Shown here: positions 1 through 8,616 of the stretch, piece by piece | Layout: each line of letters opens with the position of its first letter | Numbering within the stretch: position 1 is the stretch's first letter | Assembly (NCBI GenBank): GCA_947478535.1 | Contig: CANJXD010000226.1 | Span: forward strand, 1 to 8,616 | Direction: 5' to 3' | Length of the DNA stretch: 8,616 nt | Source: Acetobacteraceae bacterium | GTDB lineage: Bacteria > Pseudomonadota > Alphaproteobacteria > Acetobacterales > Acetobacteraceae | The notes under the pieces: generated by a model | Seen by the model: the letters and a program-made list of their open reading frames with translations, nothing else | Told to the model about the DNA's origin: nothing | The model's database searches: none | Made by a program: the position numbers and the translations under genes

Positions 1-1814
1 CGGAGCTGCGTCGTGCCGAGGGTGGCGACCTGGGTGGTGCTGAGGGTCGAGATCCCGGTGGTTGTCAGGGCCGAGACCTGGCCCGACGTCAGCGCCGTCA
101 GCTGGGTGGTGGTAAGGCCGCCGATCTGGGTGGTCGAGAGGGCAGCGAGATCGGTGGTCTCGATGCCACGGATCTGCGCGGTGGACAGCGCGCCGATCTG
201 GGTGGTGGTGAGGGCGCCGACCTGGGTGGTGGTGAGCGATGCGACCTGGCCCGAGGTGAGGCCGGCGATCTGGGTGGAGCCATAGGCGCCCAGCTGGGTC
301 GTGCTGAGTGATGCGACCTGGGTGGTGGTAAGCGCGCCGGCCTGGGTGGAGGTGAGCGCTCCGAGTTGCGTCGTGGAGAGCGCACCGATCTGGGTGGTGG
401 AAAGGCCGGAGAACTGTGTGGAGCCGAAGCCGCGCAGCTGGGTCGTGGTGAGGGCTGCCAGGTCCGTCGTTTCCAGAGCGCCAGCCTGAGTGGAGGTGAG
501 GGCGCCAAGCTGAGCCGAAGAAATGCCGCCGATCTGGGTCGTCGTCAGTGCGGCGAGATCGGTGGTCTCGATGCCCCGGATCTGCGCGGTGGAGAGGGCG
601 CCGATCTGGGTGGTGGTGAGGGCGCCGACCTGGGTAGTGGTGAGGGATGCGACCTGGCCGGAGGTGAGGCCGGCGATCTGGGTGGAGGCGAAGGCGCCGA
701 TCTGGGTGGTGGTCAGGGCGGCGACCTGGGTGGTGCTCAGCGCGCCGGCCTGGGTGGAGGTGAGGCCGGAGAGTTGCGTCGTGGAGAGCGCACCGATCTG
801 GGTGGTGGAAAGGCCGGAGAACTGGGTGGAGCCGAAGCCGCGCAGCTGCGTCGTGGTGAGGGCTGCGAGGTCCGTGGTCTCCAGGGCGCCAGCCTGGGTG
901 GAGGTGAGGGCGCCAAGCTGAGCGGAAGAAATGCCGCCGATCTGGGTGGTGGTCAGCGCGGCGAGGTCGGTGGTCTCGAGGCCGCGGATGGCGGTGGTGG
1001 TGAGGGCGCCGATCTGGGTGGTGTTGAGCGCGCCGATCTGGGTGGTGGAGAGCGAAGCAAGCTGGATGGAGGAGAGGGCGGCCATCTGCGCCGTGGCGAG
1101 ACCGCCAAGCTGGGTGGTGGTCAACGCGCCGATCTGGGTGGTGGAAAGGCCGGCGAACTGCACGGAGCCGAAGCCCGTGAGCTGCGTGGTGGTCAGCGCG
1201 GCGAGGTCCGTCGTTTCCAGGGCGCCAGCCTGAGTGGAGGTGAGGGCGCCAAGCTGAGCCGAAGAAATGCCGCCGATCTGGGTGGTGGTCAGCGCGGCGA
1301 GGTCGGTGGTCTCGATGCCACGGATCTGCGCGGTGGAGAGCGCGCCGATCTGGGTGGTGGTGAGGGCGCCGACCTGGGTGGTGGTGAGGGATGCGACCTG
1401 GCCGGAGGTGAGGCCGGCGATCTGGGTGGAGGCGAAGGCGCCGATCTGGGTGGTGGTCAGGGCGGCGACCTGGGTGGTGTTCAGCGCGCCGGCCTGGGTG
1501 GAGGTGAGGCCGGAGAGCTGCGTCGTGGAGAGCGCGCCGATCTGGGTGGTGGAAAGGCCGGAGAACTGGGTGGAGCCGAAGCCGCGCAGCTGCGTCGTGG
1601 TCAGCGCGGCGAGGTCCGTCGTGTCCAGGGCGCCAGCCTGGGTGGAGCGGAACATGGCAAGCTGTGTGGTGGACAACGCGCCGATCTGCGTTGTCGTCAG
1701 CGCGGCGACCTGGGTGGAGCCAAGCGCGGCAATATCGCTCGATCCAAGCACCGCGATTGTCGTGGTGGTCAAGGTCTGGATCTGAGTCGTCGTAAAGGTG
1801 CCGATGATCGACAT
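1..1814 (-). CDS. Giant octapeptide-repeat (TTQ-type) Ser/Thr-rich protein, N-terminal part; runs off left edge
   Basis: An open frame runs without a stop from ATG (1814-1812) to the left edge: 604 codons, C-terminus not visible. It begins MSIIGTF and from residue 8 consists only of octads of the form x-T-T-Q-[ILVF]-x-[AG]-L (74 complete plus a partial one). Pro, Lys, His, Cys and Trp are absent from this part. Gln holds octad position 4 in most units. Charged residues are rare and clustered. There is no Sec signal peptide, which would suit type I secretion. Codons end almost always in G or C, like the neighbouring genes, which supports this frame. A weak GGGGA lies 5 nt before the ATG. From memory, similar T-T-Q-[IV]-x-A-L proteins occur in alphaproteobacteria as uncharacterised 'beta strand repeat' or 'heme utilization' proteins; I could not verify this. 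A secreted solenoid or adhesin-like surface protein is likely; the exact function is unknown. It is divergent from two GT41 genes that may modify it. Confidence 0.85.
   Translation of the reverse strand, partial: MSIIGTFTTTQIQTLTTTTIAVLGSSDIAALGSTQVAALTTTQIGALSTTQLAMFRSTQAGALDTTDLAALTTTQLRGFGSTQFSGLSTTQIGALSTTQLSGLTSTQAGALNTTQVAALTTTQIGAFASTQIAGLTSGQVASLTTTQVGALTTTQIGALSTAQIRGIETTDLAALTTTQIGGISSAQLGALTSTQAGALETTDLAALTTTQLTGFGSVQFAGLSTTQIGALTTTQLGGLATAQMAALSSIQLASLSTTQIGALNTTQIGALTTTAIRGLETTDLAALTTTQIGGISSAQLGALTSTQAGALETTDLAALTTTQLRGFGSTQFSGLSTTQIGALSTTQLSGLTSTQAGALSTTQVAALTTTQIGAFASTQIAGLTSGQVASLTTTQVGALTTTQIGALSTAQIRGIETTDLAALTTTQIGGISSAQLGALTSTQAGALETTDLAALTTTQLRGFGSTQFSGLSTTQIGALSTTQLGALTSTQAGALTTTQVASLSTTQLGAYGSTQIAGLTSGQVASLTTTQVGALTTTQIGALSTAQIRGIETTDLAALSTTQIGGLTTTQLTALTSGQVSALTTTGISTLSTTQVATLGTTQL
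138..545 (-). repeat. Super-repeat block D (17 octads, 408 bp)
   Basis: Octads 53-69, with the same octad order as block C. It differs at octad 60 (STTQLGAL for STTQLSGL) and at octads 62-64, where TTTQVASL, STTQLGAY and GSTQIAGL replace STTQVAAL, TTTQIGAF and ASTQIAGL. Downstream of it, octads 70-75 (below position 138) no longer follow the block pattern, so a different or degenerate stretch begins there. Confidence 0.85.
546..953 (-). repeat. Super-repeat block C (17 octads, 408 bp)
   Basis: Octads 36-52, opening with TTTQIGGI, SSAQLGAL, TSTQAGAL, ETTDLAAL and TTTQLRGF and closing with STAQIRGI and ETTDLAAL. It is nearly identical to the corresponding part of block A and to block D. The DNA landmark GAAATGCCGCC, which encodes the GGI/SS junction, recurs at the block borders near 519, 927 and 1263. 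Confidence 0.9.
954..1289 (-). repeat. Super-repeat block B (14 octads, 336 bp, shortened variant)
   Basis: Octads 22-35. It starts with the same block-opening octads TTTQIGGI and SSAQLGAL as blocks C and D and ends with an Arg-bearing octad (TTTAIRGL) followed by ETTDLAAL. The middle differs: it contains ATAQMAAL and SSIQLASL, lacks the TSGQVASL octad, and is three octads shorter. It is either an in-frame deletion derivative or a separate block type. Confidence 0.85.
1290..1697 (-). repeat. Super-repeat block A (17 octads, 408 bp)
   Basis: Octads 5-21. From octad 7 onward it matches octads 38-52 of block C almost residue for residue: STQAGAL, TTDLAAL, LRGF, STQFSGL, then later ASTQIAGL, TSGQVASL and STAQIRGI. 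The DNA match between about 1310-1490 and 565-745 shows only scattered single-base differences, pointing to recent duplication. Octads 5 and 6 at the N-terminal side are more diverged. Confidence 0.85.
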
Positions 1815-1859
1815 TGCCGTCCCCACTGAGGAGTTCGCAAGCACGAGGTTGGTCCGCCG

Positions 1860-1872
1860 GGCCCCTGGGGCC
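1860..1872. promoter_or_regulatory. Short perfect palindrome in the leader of the repeat gene
   Basis: GGCCCC-T-GGGGCC is a perfect 6-bp inverted repeat with one central base, 46 bp upstream of the repeat-gene start. It could be a protein-binding site or a small hairpin in the leader of the minus-strand transcript. In GC-rich DNA a palindrome of this size can arise by chance, so the functional call is weak. Confidence 0.25.
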
Positions 1873-1891
1873 AGCAGCCATGACCAACACG

Positions 1892-1927
1892 GGGTGACAT
1901 CTTGTCGTCCCGGCTTCCTGGTCACCC
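1892..1927. promoter_or_regulatory. 7-bp inverted repeat in the divergent intergenic region (candidate operator)
   Basis: GGGTGAC (1892-1898) and GTCACCC (1921-1927) are perfect inverted copies with a 22-bp gap and starts 29 bp apart. They lie between the two divergent transcription units and directly abut the CTATAT element at 1927-1932. The position suits an operator controlling one or both directions. No regulator gene is visible in the window. Confidence 0.35.
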
Positions 1928-1933
1928 TATATC
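1901..1933 (+). promoter_or_regulatory. Weak promoter-like element for the GT41 gene pair
   Basis: CTTGTC (1901-1906) and CTATAT (1927-1932) resemble the alphaproteobacterial housekeeping pattern CTTGAC...CTATAT, but the gap is 20 bp rather than about 17. The AT-rich core GATATAG can also be read on the minus strand and might serve the repeat gene. This is the most AT-rich spot in an otherwise GC-rich intergenic region. Start sites are not proven. Confidence 0.25.
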
Positions 1934-2057
1934 GGGCGGGATTGCCGGATGATGAATCCGCGCGGCGCAATCGTCGTGATCGCGCATCAACCCAGCATTC
2001 AGGAACATGGCCCTATTCTCCGTGCGCGTGGCAGCGATGCCACCTCCGCAACGCGCC

Positions 2058-2061
2058 AGGA
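2058..2061 (+). promoter_or_regulatory. Ribosome binding site deciding the start of the first GT41 gene
   Basis: AGGA lies 7 nt upstream of the ATG at 2069. An upstream in-frame ATG at 1949 would add 40 residues that do not look like TPR sequence and have no counterpart in the paralogue, so 2069 is preferred. Confidence 0.6.
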
Positions 2062-2068
2062 TGGAAGC

Positions 2069-4030
2069 ATGCCGGAAGCCAGCCTCGCCGAACTCATCGG
2101 CACCGCCCATTCGCTGACAGAATCGGGGCGACGCGCCGATGCTCTCGCGCTGTATCGCCGCTGGATCGCGGCACAGCCGGACGATTCGATGCGGCATGTC
2201 CCGCTGTTCAACCTCTCGGTCCTGCTCGGGGCCGAGGGTGAGCATGATGCGGCGGCGGAGGCGGCGCGTGATGCCGCACGCCATGCTCCCGGCTTCCTTC
2301 CGCCCTTCCTCGCCATTGGTCTTGCGCATGAACGCAAGGGTGAACCCCAGGCCGCCATCGATCACTGGTCCTATGTGGCCAACAGCCTCGGCGCCATCAC
2401 CCGCGATGGCATCGCAATGAAGGTGGCCGCCCTCAAGAACATGGCGCGGCTATTCGAGGATCACGCGGCGCTGCACCAGGCGGAAGATGTGTTGCGCCAG
2501 GTGATGGACATCGACCCGACGCAGCAGGACGTCCTGCAACGCTGGCTCAGCCTGCGGCAGCGTCGCTGCGCCTGGCCGTTGCGGCCGGACGGCATGGCGC
2601 CCGCGGCGCTGCTGCGTGGCCTCGCACCGGTCACGCTGCTGAACATGACGGAGGATCCATTTCTCCACCTCGCCCACGCCGCCGCGTGCCATCGGCGCGA
2701 CGTGCCGGCCATCGGAGCGGCGGCGCTCCGGCTTCGCCGCGCACCGGGGCGGTTGCGCATCGGCTACCTCTCCTCCGACCTGCGGGACCATGCGGTCGGG
2801 CACCTCATGGCCGATCTGTTCCGCCACCATGATCGAGCCGCGGTGGAGATCTTTGTCTATGATTGCGGCCTTGCCCGCGAAGACGCCACGAAGCGGCGCA
2901 TTCGCCACGATGCCGAGCATTGGCGCGATATCATCGCAGTGGATGACGCGGCGGCGGCGGCGCTGATGCGGGACGATGGCATCGACATACTGGTGGATTT
3001 GAACGGCCATACGCGGGGGTCCCGCCCCGGTCTGCTGGCGCTGCGGCCAGCGCCGGCGCTGGTGAACTGGCTTGGCTATCCCGGCACGATGGGAAGCCCC
3101 CTGCACCACTACATCATCGCGGACGCCACCATCATCCCGCCGGGGTGGGAGGATACGGTGTCGGAGCGGGTGTTGCGCCTGCCCTGCTACCAGCCGAATG
3201 ACCGCCAGCGCATTGTCGCGCCGCCACCGTCCCGCGCCGCGCTGGGATTGCCCGAGGATGCGGTGGTGTTCTGCTGCTTCAACGGCACGCAGAAGCTTAC
3301 GGCGCCGATCTGGGAATCCTGGGTCCGCATACTCCGCGCCACGCCCGGCAGCGTGCTGTGGCTGATCCATGGGGGTGATGCCGCGGAGATTGCGCTGCGG
3401 GCGCGTTGGGCGGAGGCGGGGCTCGATGCCGGGCGCCTGGTCTTCGCGCGGGCGATGCCGAACCCGCAGCATGTCGCGCGCTATGCCGCGGCGGATATCG
3501 TCCTCGATACCTGGCCCTATGGCGCCCATACCACGGCGTCCGACGCGCTGTGGATGGGGGCGCCGGTGCTGACCGTGCCGGGGCTTTCCTTCGCGTCGCG
3601 CGTCTGCGCCAGCCTGGTGCGCGCGGCTGGCGTGCCGGAGATGGTCTGTGCGGACTGGGCTGCCTATGAACAACGCGCCATCGCCCTGGCGGCGGATCCC
3701 ACAGCTCTCGCCGCGCTGCGCGCCCGCCTGCTGGCGGCACGCGAGACATCGGTGCTGTTTGATACCGCGGGGCTGGCGCGCGCGCTGGAGGCGCTGTTCG
3801 CCGGCATCGCGCGGGATATCGAGGCGGATCGCCTGCCGCGCCCGAACCTCGTGAACCTCGAGATCTATCTCGATATCGGGGTGGACAGCCTGCGCGACGA
3901 TGCCGTGCCGATGACGCGCCATGCGATGCTGGCGCGCTGGCAGGCCGCACTTGCGGCGCGGGACGCGATGTCACCATTGCCGAGCGATGGCCGGCTTTGG
4001 CCGGCGGCGTTGCCGCTGGCGGCGGAGTAG
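2069..4030 (+). CDS. TPR + GT41 (SPINDLY/OGT-like) protein O-glycosyltransferase, paralogue 1
   Basis: The product has 653 residues. The N-terminal part (about 1-165) holds four TPR-like helix pairs, for example ADALALYRRWIAAQPDD near 23-39, and ends in the linker LRQRRCAWP (162-170) seen in SPINDLY-family proteins. The catalytic region follows: RIGYLSSDLRDHAVGHLM (230-247, with H241 and H245), DLNGHTRG (310-317), then LGYPGT. FNGTQK ends in K409, which aligns with the UDP-binding Lys of human OGT. AHTTASD (486-492) matches the HTTxxD donor-site motif. A tail at 592-653 (YLDIGVDS, PLPSDGRLWP) is typical of one bacterial subgroup. The family transfers a sugar, classically GlcNAc from UDP-GlcNAc, to protein Ser/Thr in the cytoplasm, with TPRs binding the substrate. 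All key residues are present, so it should be active. The donor and the target are inferred; the divergent Thr-rich repeat protein is the obvious candidate. Confidence 0.9.
   Translation: MPEASLAELIGTAHSLTESGRRADALALYRRWIAAQPDDSMRHVPLFNLSVLLGAEGEHDAAAEAARDAARHAPGFLPPFLAIGLAHERKGEPQAAIDHWSYVANSLGAITRDGIAMKVAALKNMARLFEDHAALHQAEDVLRQVMDIDPTQQDVLQRWLSLRQRRCAWPLRPDGMAPAALLRGLAPVTLLNMTEDPFLHLAHAAACHRRDVPAIGAAALRLRRAPGRLRIGYLSSDLRDHAVGHLMADLFRHHDRAAVEIFVYDCGLAREDATKRRIRHDAEHWRDIIAVDDAAAAALMRDDGIDILVDLNGHTRGSRPGLLALRPAPALVNWLGYPGTMGSPLHHYIIADATIIPPGWEDTVSERVLRLPCYQPNDRQRIVAPPPSRAALGLPEDAVVFCCFNGTQKLTAPIWESWVRILRATPGSVLWLIHGGDAAEIALRARWAEAGLDAGRLVFARAMPNPQHVARYAAADIVLDTWPYGAHTTASDALWMGAPVLTVPGLSFASRVCASLVRAAGVPEMVCADWAAYEQRAIALAADPTALAALRARLLAARETSVLFDTAGLARALEALFAGIARDIEADRLPRPNLVNLEIYLDIGVDSLRDDAVPMTRHAMLARWQAALAARDAMSPLPSDGRLWPAALPLAAE
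4021..4027 (+). promoter_or_regulatory. Ribosome binding site of the second GT41 gene, inside the end of the first
   Basis: GGCGGAG overlaps the last codons of the upstream gene and is 8 nt from the ATG at 4036. This selects 4036 over the in-frame ATG at 3997, which would add a low-complexity Gly/Ala stretch. Close spacing implies translational coupling. Confidence 0.65.
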
Positions 4031-4035
4031 CGGCG

Positions 4036-5808
4036 ATGCTGGATGCGCCGATCGCCCTGGGCCTTGCGGGCCTGCCGCTGGAAGCAGTGCTGCCGATGGC
4101 GGAAGCCGCCAGCGCGGCGCGCAACCACAGCACCGCCGCGGCGCTCTACCAGGCCTGGATCGCCGCCAATCCGGATGCGCCGCAGGGCTTCGCGGCGTGG
4201 TTCAATCTTGGCGTCGAATTCGCCCGCGCCGGTGACCACGCGAACGCCATCGCCGCCTATCGCCATGCGCTGCACCGGAAGCCCGATCTGCACCAGGCCG
4301 CAGTCAATCTGGGCCTCGCGCTGGAAGCCGCGGGGCAGCCGGAGGCTGCGTTGCAACTCTGGGCCGAGGCCCTGCAGCCCGATGCCGCGCGCATCGCCCT
4401 GCTGAACCATCGTGGCCGGCTGCTGGAGATGCGGGGCGCGCTGGCGGAGGCCGCCGAGGCGCTGCGGTCGAGCCTGCTGGTGGACCCCGCGCAGCCCGAC
4501 GTGCTGCAGCACTGGACGCATCTGCGCCAGAGGCTTTGCGCCTGGCCGATCTTCGGCACGGATATCCCGGGCCTCGACGCCGCCACCATCGAACACAATG
4601 CCGGCCCGCTGGGAATCCTGGCGCTGACCGATGATGTGGAGACCCAGCGCCGCGTCGCAGCGGCCTGGATCGCGCGGAAGGTGCCCCCGGTGGCGCGCCG
4701 TCTTTCGCCGCCGGAGGGATATCGGCATCAGCGCATCCGGATCGGCTACCTCTCCTCCGATTTCTGCCGTCATGCGATGAGCTTCCTGATCGCGCAGGTG
4801 CTGGAGCGCCATGACCGCGCCCGGTTCGAGGTTTTCGGCTACTGCTCCTCCCCCGAGGATGGCAGCGACATCCGCCGCCGTGTCCTCGCGGCGCTCGACC
4901 ATCATGTGCCGGTCGGCGCGCTGGATGATGAGGCGGCGGCGCGGCGGATCCGCGACGATGAGATCGACATCCTGATCGACCTCAATGGCCTGACGCGCGG
5001 TGCGCGGCTCGGCGCGCTGCGCCATCGCCCGGCGCCGGTGCAGGTCACCTATCTCGGCTATATCGGGCCGGTGCCGATGGAGGAGCTGGATGGCTTTCTC
5101 TGTGACGCCGTGACGGTGCCGCCGGCGCAGGCCGCGCTCTACGCACCGAAGCCACTGCCGCTGCCCGGGCTGTATCAGGCGAATGACGCGCGGGAGATGG
5201 CGCTGCCGTGCGTATCCCGCGCCGAGGAAGGGCTGCCGGGCGCGGCCTTCGTCTTCTGCAACTTCTCCCACTACTACAAGATCACGGAAGCCGCTTTCGC
5301 CGACTGGATGATGATCTTGCGCCGCGTGCCTGACAGCGTGCTGTGGCTGGTGGATGACAATGACGCGGGCCGGCGCAACCTGCAGGCGGCGGCCGCCGGC
5401 CATGGCGTGGCGGCGCAGCGCCTGGTCTTCGCCGCGCGGGTCGATCCCGCCCGCTATCGCGCGCGCCTCGCGCTCGCGGATCTGTTCCTCGACACCACGC
5501 CCTACAATGCCGGGACCGTCGCCTCCGACGCCCTGCGCATGGGCCTGCCGCTGCTGACCCTGCCCGGACGCTCCTTCGCGTCCCGCATGGCGGCGAGCCT
5601 GCTGACAGCGATCGGCGCGACGGAGGGCATCGCCACGGATCGCGCGGATTACATTGCCCGCGCCATCGCCCTGGCCACCGATCCGCAGCGCCATGCCCGC
5701 GCCCGGGCCGCGCTGGCCGGCGAAGCCTGGGTGCGCACGCTGGGCGACAGCGCCGGCTTCACCCGACGCCTGGAAGCCTTGCTGGAATCGATCCGCCGTC
5801 AGCCATAG
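4036..5808 (+). CDS. TPR + GT41 (SPINDLY/OGT-like) glycosyltransferase, paralogue 2 with altered donor-site motif
   Basis: The product has 590 residues and starts 5 bp after the first GT41 gene, so it is surely in the same operon. TPR-like units occupy about 17-158 (ALYQAWIAANPDAP, FNLGVEFARAGDHANAI, NLGLALEAAGQPEAAL), followed by LRQRLCAWP. The catalytic domain includes RIGYLSSDFCRHAMSFL (235-251), DLNGLTRG, YYKITE with K415, and YNAGTVASDALR (490-501). Compared with paralogue 1, the first motif keeps H246 but has F250 where the second His is. The donor-site AHTT is replaced by AGTV, with Arg instead of Trp after DAL. The roughly 60-residue C-terminal tail is missing. It arose by an old duplication, because the paralogues are clearly alignable but well diverged. 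It may use another sugar donor, another substrate, or act as a partner subunit. Its 3' end overlaps the convergent gene by 10 bp. Confidence 0.88.
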   Translation: MLDAPIALGLAGLPLEAVLPMAEAASAARNHSTAAALYQAWIAANPDAPQGFAAWFNLGVEFARAGDHANAIAAYRHALHRKPDLHQAAVNLGLALEAAGQPEAALQLWAEALQPDAARIALLNHRGRLLEMRGALAEAAEALRSSLLVDPAQPDVLQHWTHLRQRLCAWPIFGTDIPGLDAATIEHNAGPLGILALTDDVETQRRVAAAWIARKVPPVARRLSPPEGYRHQRIRIGYLSSDFCRHAMSFLIAQVLERHDRARFEVFGYCSSPEDGSDIRRRVLAALDHHVPVGALDDEAAARRIRDDEIDILIDLNGLTRGARLGALRHRPAPVQVTYLGYIGPVPMEELDGFLCDAVTVPPAQAALYAPKPLPLPGLYQANDAREMALPCVSRAEEGLPGAAFVFCNFSHYYKITEAAFADWMMILRRVPDSVLWLVDDNDAGRRNLQAAAAGHGVAAQRLVFAARVDPARYRARLALADLFLDTTPYNAGTVASDALRMGLPLLTLPGRSFASRMAASLLTAIGATEGIATDRADYIARAIALATDPQRHARARAALAGEAWVRTLGDSAGFTRRLEALLESIRRQP

Positions 5809-7490
5809 GCCGACAGGCGCGCCGCCAGCGCGGCATCCAGCGCGCCACGCCGCGCGATGAGGGACCGGTACCAATCGATCCGGCGCCGCATCTGGTAGGA
5901 GCCCATGCGCTCCGCCGCGACCCAGCGATGCGCGGCCTGCCCGATGGCATGCGCGCGGTCCGGGTTGGCGAGCAGCCCGCGCAACGCCGTCGCCAATGCC
6001 GCGGGGTCGCGCAGGAGGATGCCGGTTTCGCCATCGCGCAGGCTCTCCGCATAGACCGTGGGGCTGGCGAGGCAGCAGAGGCCGCGGGAGGCAGCTTCCA
6101 CCGCCTTGATGTCGGATTTCATCGCATTGAAGCGGGTCTCCGCCAGCGGCAGGAAGGCCAGTTCGCAGCGGGCCATGGTGGCGCGATAGGTCGCGTAGTC
6201 GCAGGACGGTGTGAACCGCTTGTGGCGGGTGGAGAGCGCCGCGAAGCTCGCTTCGTCGTGCAGAATCTCGATCATGAGGCGACCCTGGGCTTCCTCCGCC
6301 GCCGCCCCCAGCGCCGGCAGGAAGGGCGCGATATCCGCGCCGCGGTTGAGCGCGCCGAAGAACAGCGAAAGTCGGCCCGCCGTCGCGAAGTTCGCCGGCA
6401 CCGGCAAGGTTTCCACACCGAAGGGGAAGGCCTCGACCTCCGGGTTCCACTCTCGCAGCAAGCGGGCCAGGGTGGGGGTGGAGGTCTGCACGGCGTGGGT
6501 GGCGCGGAAGGTCAGGTGATGGGTTTCCTCCATCGCGGGCCAGCGCGCGGGATCGTCATCGAATTCCTGCACCAGCACCGCGCCGCTGTCACGCACGGCC
6601 TGCACGATGCCGAGCGATTCCGGGCCGAGCAGCGTGCGCTGCATCAGCATGATGCGCGGCGTCCCGGCATCACCCGGTGGCAGCAGCAGGTCCGGTGCCG
6701 CGATGGTGGCGATGCCGGGCGCGGTCGCCATTTCTCGCAGCGGTTGCAGCACGCGCACTTCGGCCATCGCGGCGACGGGGTCCGCCAGTGTGCGCGCGGC
6801 GATCAGCAGTGGTGCCGGCGGCGTGCGGGCGGCGCGCCAGACATATTGCAGCGGCCGGCTGCGATCGAGCCATCCCGCGGCATCGATGCCGAGGCTGGCG
6901 AGGCCGGGCGCCATGGCACGGGCAAAATTCTCCGCCGCCTCCGCATCGAAGATGCGGGGTATGACCTCCAGCGGCGTGAGCCCGGCCTGGGCGAGCGCAT
7001 CGCGCATCATCGCCGGCGTGAACCAGCGCAGATGCGTGCGGTCATACAGGCCATGCGGCGCATAGTCCCAGCCCCCGGCCAGCAGCCGCGCGGCGAAGGA
7101 CCAATGCTCGACATTCGGGATGCAGACCAGCAGCACGCCATCGCGCGACAGCAGCTTCGCGTCGCGCCGCAGCACGGCCCAGGGGTCCCGCAGGTGTTCC
7201 AGCACATCGCCGAAGATCATCGCATCCAGGCTGCCGTCCGCGACCGGCGGTGGCGTCGTCTCGATGTCGATGCCGTGCACCTCATCCATCCAGGGCGCCG
7301 CGCGCGCGGCGAGGCCTGGGTCCGGCTCGATGCCAATCAGCCTAGTGCGGGGATTGATGCGCCGGAAGGCGCGCGCCAGCGCGCCCGCGCCGCAGCCGAT
7401 ATCGAGCACCGCTTGCGCATCGCGCGGGATGCGGGAGAGCAGGTCCGGATTGGCGTCGGACCCGTAGATGAAGGCGCCATCGTCGGGCAT
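5799..7490 (-). CDS. Bifunctional class I SAM methyltransferase - GT4-like glycosyltransferase
   Basis: The product has 563 residues. The N-terminal half is a Rossmann methyltransferase of the Methyltransf_23 kind: DIGCGAG (30-36) binds SAM, IGIEPDPG follows with acidic E55, then GDVLEHLRDP (94-103), PNVEHWSF and DRTHLRWFT. The C-terminal half (about 225-563) resembles a GT-B glycosyltransferase of family 4: SDIKAVEAASRGLCCLAS (459-476, with E465 in the nucleotide-sugar-binding segment), followed by ETGILLRDPAALATAL. Such fusions are common in surface polysaccharide or glycoprotein glycan loci, where one chain extends a glycan and methylates a sugar. The acceptor is unknown. The start follows a GGAG at 7501-7504, 10 nt upstream. 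It lies 28 bp downstream of the HlyD-family gene on the same strand and is probably co-transcribed with it. Confidence 0.85.
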   Translation of the reverse strand: MPDDGAFIYGSDANPDLLSRIPRDAQAVLDIGCGAGALARAFRRINPRTRLIGIEPDPGLAARAAPWMDEVHGIDIETTPPPVADGSLDAMIFGDVLEHLRDPWAVLRRDAKLLSRDGVLLVCIPNVEHWSFAARLLAGGWDYAPHGLYDRTHLRWFTPAMMRDALAQAGLTPLEVIPRIFDAEAAENFARAMAPGLASLGIDAAGWLDRSRPLQYVWRAARTPPAPLLIAARTLADPVAAMAEVRVLQPLREMATAPGIATIAAPDLLLPPGDAGTPRIMLMQRTLLGPESLGIVQAVRDSGAVLVQEFDDDPARWPAMEETHHLTFRATHAVQTSTPTLARLLREWNPEVEAFPFGVETLPVPANFATAGRLSLFFGALNRGADIAPFLPALGAAAEEAQGRLMIEILHDEASFAALSTRHKRFTPSCDYATYRATMARCELAFLPLAETRFNAMKSDIKAVEAASRGLCCLASPTVYAESLRDGETGILLRDPAALATALRGLLANPDRAHAIGQAAHRWVAAERMGSYQMRRRIDWYRSLIARRGALDAALAARLSAYG

Positions 7491-7518: not shown

Positions 7519-8616
7519 TCACGGTTCCCGGATGCTTTCCTGGAAGCCGCGGATCAGCGGGTGGAGGAAGAATTCGATGACGCGCCGCGTGCCGACCTTC
7601 ACCTCGGCGGTGACGCTCATGCCCGCGATGGGGCGCGCGCCTTCGGGCAGGTGTTGCAACTGCGGCGCACCCAGCGCGATGACGGCGCGATGCAGGGCGA
7701 GGCCCGGCATCGCTTCGCCCTCCGCGGAGCGAGGCGTTGAGTCCGGCGCCACGCTGCGCAGCGTGCCGTGAAGCGGGCCGTGGCGTTGGAAGGGGAAGGC
7801 ATCCACCTTGACCACCGTGGGATCGCCGCCGCTGAGCCGGCCGATATCGGCGGAGCGCAGCGTGATTTCCGCGACCAGCGGCGCACCCAGCGGCACCAGC
7901 GTGACCAGTGCTTCCGCCTCCCGCACCACCGATCCGGCGGAGCGGCGGGCGACCTCGATGACCACGCCATCGGCCGGGGCGACCAGTGTCATCAACGCAT
8001 CGAGGCGCGTCGCCTTCGCCACCTGTTCCTCGACCCGGGACAGCTCGGCATGCAGGCGCGCGAGTTCTTCGGTGATCTGGCGCTGCCAATCCTCCAGGAA
8101 GGCGGTGCGTTCGGATTGGCGGGCCGCGAGGGCGGCGCGCAGTTCCTCCTGGCGGGCCTGCGCCTGACGCTGGTCCTGTTCGGCCTGGATGCGCGTGGCA
8201 CGTGCGGCCAGCGCCTGCAGGCGGGTGCCGATCTGGCCTTCCAGCAGCCGCAGGCGCAGCGCCTCCACCTCCTGCGCGATGGAGACCTGCTCGGCCGTGC
8301 CGGGCGCTCCGTCCGAAAGCGCCGCGATGCCAGCGGAAAGCCCCGCGATTTCCGCCGCGAAGGCCGAGAGCCGCGCATTGCGGAGCGCCGCGCGCTGGGT
8401 GTGCAGCAGGGCTTGCAGCGCGGCGTCCGGGTCCGTGGCGAGCGGCGGTGCGCGCCCGGCCTGTTCCGCCGTCAGCCGCGCGAGCTGCGCGGTCAGCAGC
8501 CGCCGCTGCGCCAGCAGTGCCGCGCGATCCGCTTCGGTGAAGCTGGGGTCCAGCAGCGCCAGCACCTGCCCGCGCGTGACGATATCACCGGGCCGTGCGC
8601 GGATTTCCCGCAGCAC
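7519..8616 (-). CDS. Type I secretion membrane-fusion protein, HlyD family; N-terminus beyond right edge
   Basis: The last 365 codons are visible. The first visible residues (REIRARPGDIVTRGQVLALL) are the first half of a lipoyl/barrel-sandwich domain, so the cytoplasmic N-terminus and membrane anchor lie outside the window, and the GTG at the very edge is not a real start. A long Ala/Gln/Arg-rich coiled-coil hairpin covers roughly visible residues 28-210. The second lipoyl half follows (APADGVVIEVARRSAGSVV). A beta-barrel region comes next (ITLRSADIGRLSGGDPTVVKVDAFPFQRHG). The end has GMSVTAEVKVGTRRVIEFFLHPLI, the typical HlyD/PrtE-like C-terminus. Such adaptors sit in the inner membrane and periplasm and link an ABC exporter to an outer-membrane TolC-type channel. 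The ABC gene is probably upstream, past the right edge. The neighbourhood suggests that it exports the giant repeat protein; this is inference. Confidence 0.88.
   Translation of the reverse strand: MLREIRARPGDIVTRGQVLALLDPSFTEADRAALLAQRRLLTAQLARLTAEQAGRAPPLATDPDAALQALLHTQRAALRNARLSAFAAEIAGLSAGIAALSDGAPGTAEQVSIAQEVEALRLRLLEGQIGTRLQALAARATRIQAEQDQRQAQARQEELRAALAARQSERTAFLEDWQRQITEELARLHAELSRVEEQVAKATRLDALMTLVAPADGVVIEVARRSAGSVVREAEALVTLVPLGAPLVAEITLRSADIGRLSGGDPTVVKVDAFPFQRHGPLHGTLRSVAPDSTPRSAEGEAMPGLALHRAVIALGAPQLQHLPEGARPIAGMSVTAEVKVGTRRVIEFFLHPLIRGFQESIREP

Follow-up and report, generated by a model that had tools for sequence, protein, structure and literature searches.

The glycosylation of adhesins and flagellins in the cytoplasm is an established mode of protein modification in bacteria. 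For example, the cytoplasmic GT41 enzyme HMW1C glycosylates HMW1, a large secreted adhesin encoded beside it, through an N-linkage, and the adhesin leaves the cell by two-partner secretion. To our knowledge, few natural substrates have been identified for bacterial OGT-like GT41 enzymes. FlmG, a cytoplasmic Caulobacter enzyme combining tetratricopeptide repeats (TPRs) with a glycosyltransferase domain, is described as modifying flagellins by O-linkage before export and as binding its substrate through the TPR part (PMC7591256). For TtOGT of Thermobaculum, no activity on the peptides tested in vitro is reported (PMC4683255). Here, we describe a stretch of 8,616 nucleotides from an Acetobacteraceae bacterium (assembly GCA_947478535.1, contig CANJXD010000226.1, the whole of which is referred to as the window), in which a protein of ALTTAQ octad repeats is encoded next to two GT41 enzymes, GT41-A and GT41-B.

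We consider it likely that this locus is a dedicated O-glycosylation and export cluster, in which Thr and Ser residues of helical-screw octads are glycosylated and the product leaves by type I export, at least where the genes for it are present. The enzymes resemble FlmG in joining TPRs to a cytoplasmic glycosyltransferase that would act by O-linkage before export, but whereas FlmG serves flagellin and the flagellar export route, the linked protein here is an ALTTAQ screw, HlyB and HlyD accompany part of the clusters, and there are often two GT41 enzymes. With OGT and SPINDLY proteins, including XcOGT and TtOGT (PMC4683255), they share the fold, the GT41 catalytic columns, and N-terminal TPR-like helices; in contrast to those proteins, a candidate substrate is physically linked, class B enzymes lack the HTT motif, and the donor may be a pentose. 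Unlike HMW1, the ALTTAQ protein is Asn-poor and Thr-rich and occurs with type I secretion genes. The ALTTAQ family in Pfam and the cytoplasmic mode of glycosylation are known, and the substrate and, where seen, the export route are different. We found no description of an ALTTAQ/GT41 pairing in the literature collection searched. In environmental bacteria that are in culture (Caulobacter, Niveispirillum, Rhodovastum, and Rhizobium), the two GT41 classes accompany a physically linked candidate acceptor of high regularity, for which the acceptor positions and, in a subset of clusters, the donor can be predicted. If the proposal is true, it would provide a testable natural target for bacterial OGT-related enzymes, assign a role to the ALTTAQ threonines, and offer a simple polymer with which to study repeat processing by TPR glycosyltransferases. 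The genes concerned are as follows:

3..1814, minus strand: ALTTAQ octad-repeat protein, N-terminal 604 residues with 74 octads, 3' end beyond the window (PF20080, E 8e-147)
1815..2068, no strand: divergent intergenic region if GT41-A starts at 2069
2069..4030, plus strand: GT41-A, predicted OGT-like O-glycosyltransferase, open from ATG 1949 with likely start at 2069 (PF13844, E 5e-81)
4036..5808, plus strand: GT41-B, TPR-containing GT41 with a divergent donor-site motif (PF13844, E 5e-71; TPR_1/TPR_2 above cut-off)

A regular array of Ser and Thr on a predicted helical screw

The ALTTAQ protein starts with MSIIG, and 74 octads follow in a single register as far as the window edge, which cuts the gene; all counts therefore cover the visible N-terminal part, and the C-terminus lies outside. 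PF20080 (ALTTAQ_rpt) matches this part in 22 stretches with 477 bits, against a gathering score of 26.4. Ser or Thr (S/T) is found at position 1 in 53 of the 74 octads, at position 2 in all 74, and at position 3 in 61. A preliminary description of this DNA had claimed adjacent Ser/Thr residues in nearly every octad and more than a hundred potential sites, which agrees with the 135 sites at positions 2 and 3 together. The same description knew of no earlier case of a giant octad protein as substrate, but the repeat itself is not new: it belongs to a known Pfam family, and its predicted fold has a relative in the PDB. When residues were shuffled inside each octad, none of 2,000 permutations reached the observed S/T fraction of 0.847 at positions 1 to 3 (highest permuted value, 0.45). 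The 74 octads comprise 62 distinct DNA sequences and use several Thr codons.

The composition of the 604 visible residues (152 Thr, 58 Ser, and 2 Asn) bears on whether the enzymes could be HMW1C-like N-glycosyltransferases acting on Asn sequons. HMW1C is classed in GT41 as well, and it is paired with a large adhesin; however, two Asn in 604 residues speak against the Asn-X-Ser/Thr acceptors that an HMW1C-type enzyme uses, and of the 19 PDB matches of GT41-A at E 0.001, none carries the name HMW1C. N-glycosylation of the octad protein was set aside on the Asn count, and we regard HMW1C-like activity as hardly credible for this locus.

An AlphaFold2 (AF2) model of 15 octads (120 residues, encoded by 717-1076), for which 54 additional octad stretches, taken both from the window and from other loci, were placed in the alignment, predicts 15 short helices with a predicted local distance difference test (pLDDT) score of 95.8. 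Each modeled helix begins at octad position 2, and the continuous array with one short helix per eight residues is that expected of a HeliScrew-type fold. By sequence, the window array matches HeliScrew4 (PDB 9zem, E 3e-13), and the two have octad sequence and register in common, with octads that read like LTPEQIAA in HeliScrew4 versus LTTTQIGA in the window. Given the modeled helix starts and this match, position 1, which holds 53 of the 210 S/T in the visible protein, probably serves as the helix N-cap in both. In the first helical turn, positions 2 and 3 would be solvent exposed. At these two positions, Ser/Thr in the window contrasts with mostly Pro, Glu, and similar residues in HeliScrew4, and no link between HeliScrew4 and glycosylation was seen in this analysis. 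When the octad model was compared by Foldseek with the PDB (entries to April 2026), nothing fell below E 0.001 and 9zem was not listed; the weak matches, with mesothelin at the top, were set aside. Many ALTTAQ proteins elsewhere (P0001, P0002, P0011, and others) carry a calpain protease domain (PF00648) or PF26745, and thus the repeat serves in several kinds of protein.

Two classes of GT41 enzyme

Judged by their sequences, both GT41-A and GT41-B are OGT-like, with PF13844 and the Lys that corresponds to Lys842 of human OGT (hOGT), which has been called the key catalytic residue (PMC4683255). GT41-A matches XcOGT (2jlb) with E 9e-89 by sequence and E 6e-36 by fold; its model (pLDDT 88.3) has XcOGT as the best PDB fold match, followed by fly OGT, human OGT, and SPINDLY. 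GT41-B matches human OGT (7ntf) with E 3.5e-81. In the alignment, class A rows keep the columns of hOGT His498, Lys842, His920, Thr921, Thr922, and Asp925 wherever covered. Of these, class B retains the His498, Lys, and Asp columns and has GTV, GTI, or GTT instead of HTT, and the donor-site motif reads GTVASD in GT41-B versus HTTASD in GT41-A.

The preliminary description of two TPR-containing GT41 enzymes was correct as to family and, by Pfam, as to the TPRs of GT41-B; Pfam gave only sub-threshold TPR matches for GT41-A, for which N-terminal TPRs are predicted from helical hairpins at residues 46-205 of the model. GT41-A probably starts at 2069, not 1949, because model confidence is very low over the first 40 residues when translation is read from 1949 (block pLDDT 25-37). 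Its relatives include L001 (53% identity over the best segment) and a Pseudoroseomonas plasmid (55%), both Acetobacteraceae, in keeping with the family of the window. We treated long antisense open frames in the window as artefacts of high GC content. Outside the family sample, ALTTAQ genomes contain very long open frames, of about 2,000-3,800 amino acids, that match the GT41 domain several times (G339:C153, G275:C17, G315:C92, and others).

ALTTAQ arrays and GT41 genes are recurrent neighbors

A genome scan with the GT41-A sequence alone returned 12 loci (one Acetobacteraceae, one unclassified alphaproteobacterium, and ten Caulobacter or Caulobacterales), and all 12 have an ALTTAQ array directly beside GT41. 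The control genome of Caulobacter vibrioides matches both families, and in other records of that species (L005 and L011) the two genes are adjacent. The preliminary description had proposed a genome-wide comparison of octad genes with GT41 genes, and its outcome in 200 Acetobacteraceae genomes, drawn from the family of L001, was favorable. ALTTAQ was present in 31 genomes and a GT41-A protein match in 112, and all 31 fell among the 112. An orthologue of GT41-A (>480 bits) was found in 19 genomes, 18 of which hold ALTTAQ (Fisher 2e-16). We then compared 41 GT41 regions, namely, 40 from this sample plus L001, which were chosen by GT41 score except for L109, L110, and L111, taken in because their genomes hold ALTTAQ. 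An ALTTAQ array lay at most 2 kb from GT41 in 25 of 30 class A/B loci versus 0 of 11 other GT41 loci, or in 24 of 29 versus 0 of 9 when those three are excluded.

On plasmids, ALTTAQ was found in the region of all of the best 11 of 98 records matching GT41-A (H16-H26; H27-H30 were left out), at most 1 kb away in nine Rhizobiaceae and 4-5 kb away in Pseudoroseomonas and Niveispirillum. From the side of the ALTTAQ protein, H1 and H14 were fetched out of 15 listed plasmid matches. In the Pseudoroseomonas cervicalis plasmid (L262 1615-6735), the array spans several reading frames and looks broken, or the sequence has indels. In the Rhizobium CCGE532 plasmid (L273 16868-23220), curlin and CsgH genes lie a few kilobases from the pair.

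The pairing and adjacency of ALTTAQ and GT41 are not due to chance. The head-to-head layout stressed in the preliminary description is present in the window but is one of several orders and is not conserved in relatives, where the array lies upstream, downstream, or divergent; this variation favors functional linkage over frozen synteny. The specific substrate-enzyme pair that was also suggested there gains support from adjacency far beyond chance together with the tendency of S/T at positions 2 and 3 to follow GT41, as described below.

The association extends beyond the family. Among 398 Pseudomonadota genomes (the phylum sample), ALTTAQ occurred in 28, GT41 in 133, and both in 19, so that GT41 was present in 19 of 28 ALTTAQ genomes versus 114 of 370 others (odds ratio 4.7, p 1.3e-4). 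Ten of the 19 double-positive genomes (G001, G245, G251, G255, G283, G287, G315, G347, G558, and G578) carry both on the same contig, at most about 11 kb apart. Of 289 genomes in a second class sample, six held ALTTAQ, including G404, which is also in the phylum sample. In the three that have Thr-rich arrays (G757, G782, and G845), GT41 shares the contig and lies some 2-5 kb from one array; G757 and G782 also carry a second array far from GT41. Among those with Thr-poor arrays, G404 and G728 are without GT41, and G638 has GT41 far away. Tandem class A-like GT41 pairs were seen in the phylum sample (L225 13963-18865 in G255 and L228 13752-18647 in G283), about 10-30 kb from Thr-rich arrays with adjoining HlyD.

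Ser and Thr at positions 2 and 3 follow GT41

Across the phylum sample, 19 GT41-positive genomes had a mean S/T of 0.40-0.94 at positions 2-3, versus 0.04-0.24 in six GT41-negative genomes, a comparison of one hand-picked array per genome in which the GT41-negative arrays are few (6 measurable of 9 genomes) and taxonomy is an uncorrected confounder. G558 was represented by its GT41-linked array (its unlinked array has 0.23/0.56), and three of the 28 ALTTAQ genomes (G342, G398, and G468) had no array meeting the criteria and were left out; GT41-negative G468, with 14 octads, has S/T of 0.71/0.21/0.36 at positions 1/2/3. Position 1 remained at 0.57-0.78 in the same six GT41-negative genomes. Within single genomes of Caulobacter type, the GT41-linked array exceeded the unlinked array(s) at position 2 (median +0.17) and position 3 (+0.19) in 11 of 11 cases (p 0.001 each), with no excess at position 1 (median -0.02, p 0.17), although these pairs are orthologous and amount to about one comparison. 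Arrays of fewer than 10 octads and frames with position 1 S/T of 0.1 or less were left out of this comparison and of the group medians given below. The unlinked Caulobacter arrays showed no GT41 in the fetched regions (L211-L221 and L223). The Thr-poor array of Polaromonas JS666 (0.19/0.10) has no GT41 nearby, as the pairing predicts.

These results bear on an alternative in which the S/T pattern is structural only, GT41 acts, as FlmG does, on a different protein (for instance, flagellin), and the genes are neighbors because they share a locus for surface structures. Caulobacter FlmG is itself a TPR glycosyltransferase that modifies flagellins (PMC7591256), flagellar export genes come after the pair in Rhodovastum, and position 1 S/T stays high in arrays without GT41. 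In Pseudorhizobium flavum (L272 5477-16498), ALTTAQ and GT41 have two flagellin genes on one side and UDP-galactopyranose mutase on the other, and FlgE is also near. However, GT41-negative genomes are low in S/T at positions 2-3 and not at position 1, and ALTTAQ is the recurrent direct neighbor in the regions read, whereas flagellin beside the pair was seen only in P. flavum. No flagellin was found by Pfam among the five window proteins scanned. We judge this alternative to be improbable.

Several observations, together with the limits just given for the two array comparisons, weigh against dedicated glycosylation of the octads. Helix capping may account for Thr at position 1 and perhaps at position 2. 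Three of the GT41-negative arrays (G404, G407, and G484) are alike and look like one family. A Thr-poor array in Shinella PSBB067 (0.55/0.10/0.18) adjoins GT41, and Shinella H4-D48 has 0.50 at position 2 with no GT41 within about 15 kb. Nine of the 28 ALTTAQ genomes of the phylum sample have no PF13844 match. ALTTAQ was absent from the fetched region in five of the 30 class A/B loci. The genomes of L112 and L114 carry arrays at other places, GT41 in L121 and L128 sits at the end of a contig, and the genome of L129 is without ALTTAQ. Fifteen further Acetobacteraceae array regions (L132-L142 and L207-L210) show no GT41; many of these are pieces at contig ends and may represent the remainder of a split array, with G154:C1 and G075:C25 as exceptions. 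Finally, HlyB/HlyD was seen in 0 of 10 Caulobacter and 0 of 9 Rhizobiaceae fetched regions.

Export genes and a candidate sugar donor

Two further genes complete the window:

5799..7490, minus strand: S-adenosylmethionine (SAM) methyltransferase fused to a group 1 glycosyltransferase-like domain (PF13489, PF13524, PF13692)
7519..8616, minus strand: HlyD-type type I secretion periplasmic adaptor, start beyond the window (TIGR01843, 221 bits, cut-off 208.65)

The profile scan detected HlyD but no HlyB in the window. Both genes were present in the fetched region in 10 of 30 class A/B Acetobacteraceae loci versus 0 of 11 other GT41 loci, with HlyB only in L117 and HlyD only in L001; the identity of HlyB was checked separately. 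HlyB/HlyD is also present in both Rhodospirillales plasmids, and HlyD adjoins ALTTAQ arrays in phylum-sample genomes G245, G255, G283, G287, and G347. HlyD in the window and both genes in part of the relatives make the ALTTAQ protein a candidate type I substrate. No RTX family is among the Pfam matches of its visible part, the C-terminus lying outside the window.

Under the proposed mechanism, the ALTTAQ protein would fold into a long helical screw in the cytoplasm, with position 1 of each octad capping a short helix and positions 2 and 3 beginning its exposed first turn. TPR-bearing GT41 enzymes would act along the screw, transferring sugar to Thr/Ser at positions 2 and 3, and the glycosylated fiber would exit through the HlyB/HlyD type I system to form a cell-surface or secreted structure. 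The methyltransferase/glycosyltransferase fusion could possibly decorate the glycan. FkbM-family methyltransferase domains near the pair (L006 11488-14346 in Caulobacter and L115 5259-6305 in Acetobacteraceae) perhaps methylate it.

A UDP-glucuronate decarboxylase gene accompanies 5 of 19 class A-bearing Acetobacteraceae loci (a fragment in L115) and is also present on the Pseudoroseomonas and Niveispirillum plasmids; it was found in none of the 11 B-only, 11 other GT41, 10 Caulobacter, and 9 Rhizobiaceae loci and not in the window. The Pseudoroseomonas copy has UDP-glucuronic acid decarboxylase 1 as its best match in the PDB (E 2e-124, 418 bits) versus 147 bits for UDP-glucose 4-epimerase, and NCBIfam gave only sub-cut-off matches to related sugar-nucleotide enzymes. 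In Niveispirillum, the gene order is decarboxylase, GT41-A, GT41-B, HlyD and HlyB, and then the array. Because some clusters hold this decarboxylase, we hypothesize that UDP-xylose is the donor in some lineages. Two Rhizobiaceae clusters hold UDP-galactopyranose mutase and may use another sugar.

The same genes could fit a different arrangement, in which GT41 and methyltransferases build a secreted polysaccharide or glycolipid and the octad protein is an unmodified adhesin that binds this glycan. Sugar-nucleotide genes (UXS and glf) and FkbM methyltransferases do occur in the same clusters. Close to the pair, Rhizobium CCGE532 also encodes a lipopolysaccharide biosynthesis protein, a polysaccharide deacetylase, and additional glycosyltransferases, and R. 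rhizoryzae encodes a GT2. The nearest folds, however, are protein glycosyltransferases (OGT and SPINDLY), and no polymerase or flippase is annotated in the annotated clusters that were checked for them. Such glycan assembly seems very unlikely compared with glycosylation of the octad protein itself.

A possible division of labor between class A and class B

A clean rule in which class A acts on position 3 and class B on position 2 holds only partly and was kept as a lead. Median S/T at positions 1/2/3 was 0.65/0.89/0.83 for loci with A and B (8 loci), 0.75/0.86/0.86 for Acetobacteraceae with A only (7 loci), 0.71/0.42/0.85 for Caulobacter with A only (11 loci), and 0.85/0.90/0.16 for B only (11 loci), where Ala is commonest at position 3. 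Across GT41-linked arrays of Acetobacteraceae and Niveispirillum, position 3 S/T was 0.55-0.97 with class A versus 0.05-0.40 with B only; Niveispirillum, with A and B, has 0.68/0.95/0.85, and L002, which has class A, has 0.50 at position 3.

Other loci depart from the rule. Nine Rhizobiaceae loci have a class A-like enzyme (HST for HTT) and position 3 at 0.17-0.31, the second array of A+B genome G098 (L207, at a contig end with no GT41 in the region) has position 3 at 0.29, and class A-only loci L119, L124, L125, and L127 are high at position 2 without class B. In the class B tree, L126 (with A; position 3 at 0.73) nests in B-only rows and L101 (without A; 0.40) in A+B rows. The trait changes three times in this tree, and both well-supported independent pairs agree (2/2, p 0.5). 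A fuller scheme of two-enzyme O-xylosylation, with UDP-xylose from the cluster decarboxylase, two neighboring Thr modified per octad (position 3 mainly by class A and position 2 by class B), and a ladder of sugars on a type I-secreted fiber, is a doubtful extension of the O-glycosylation proposal.

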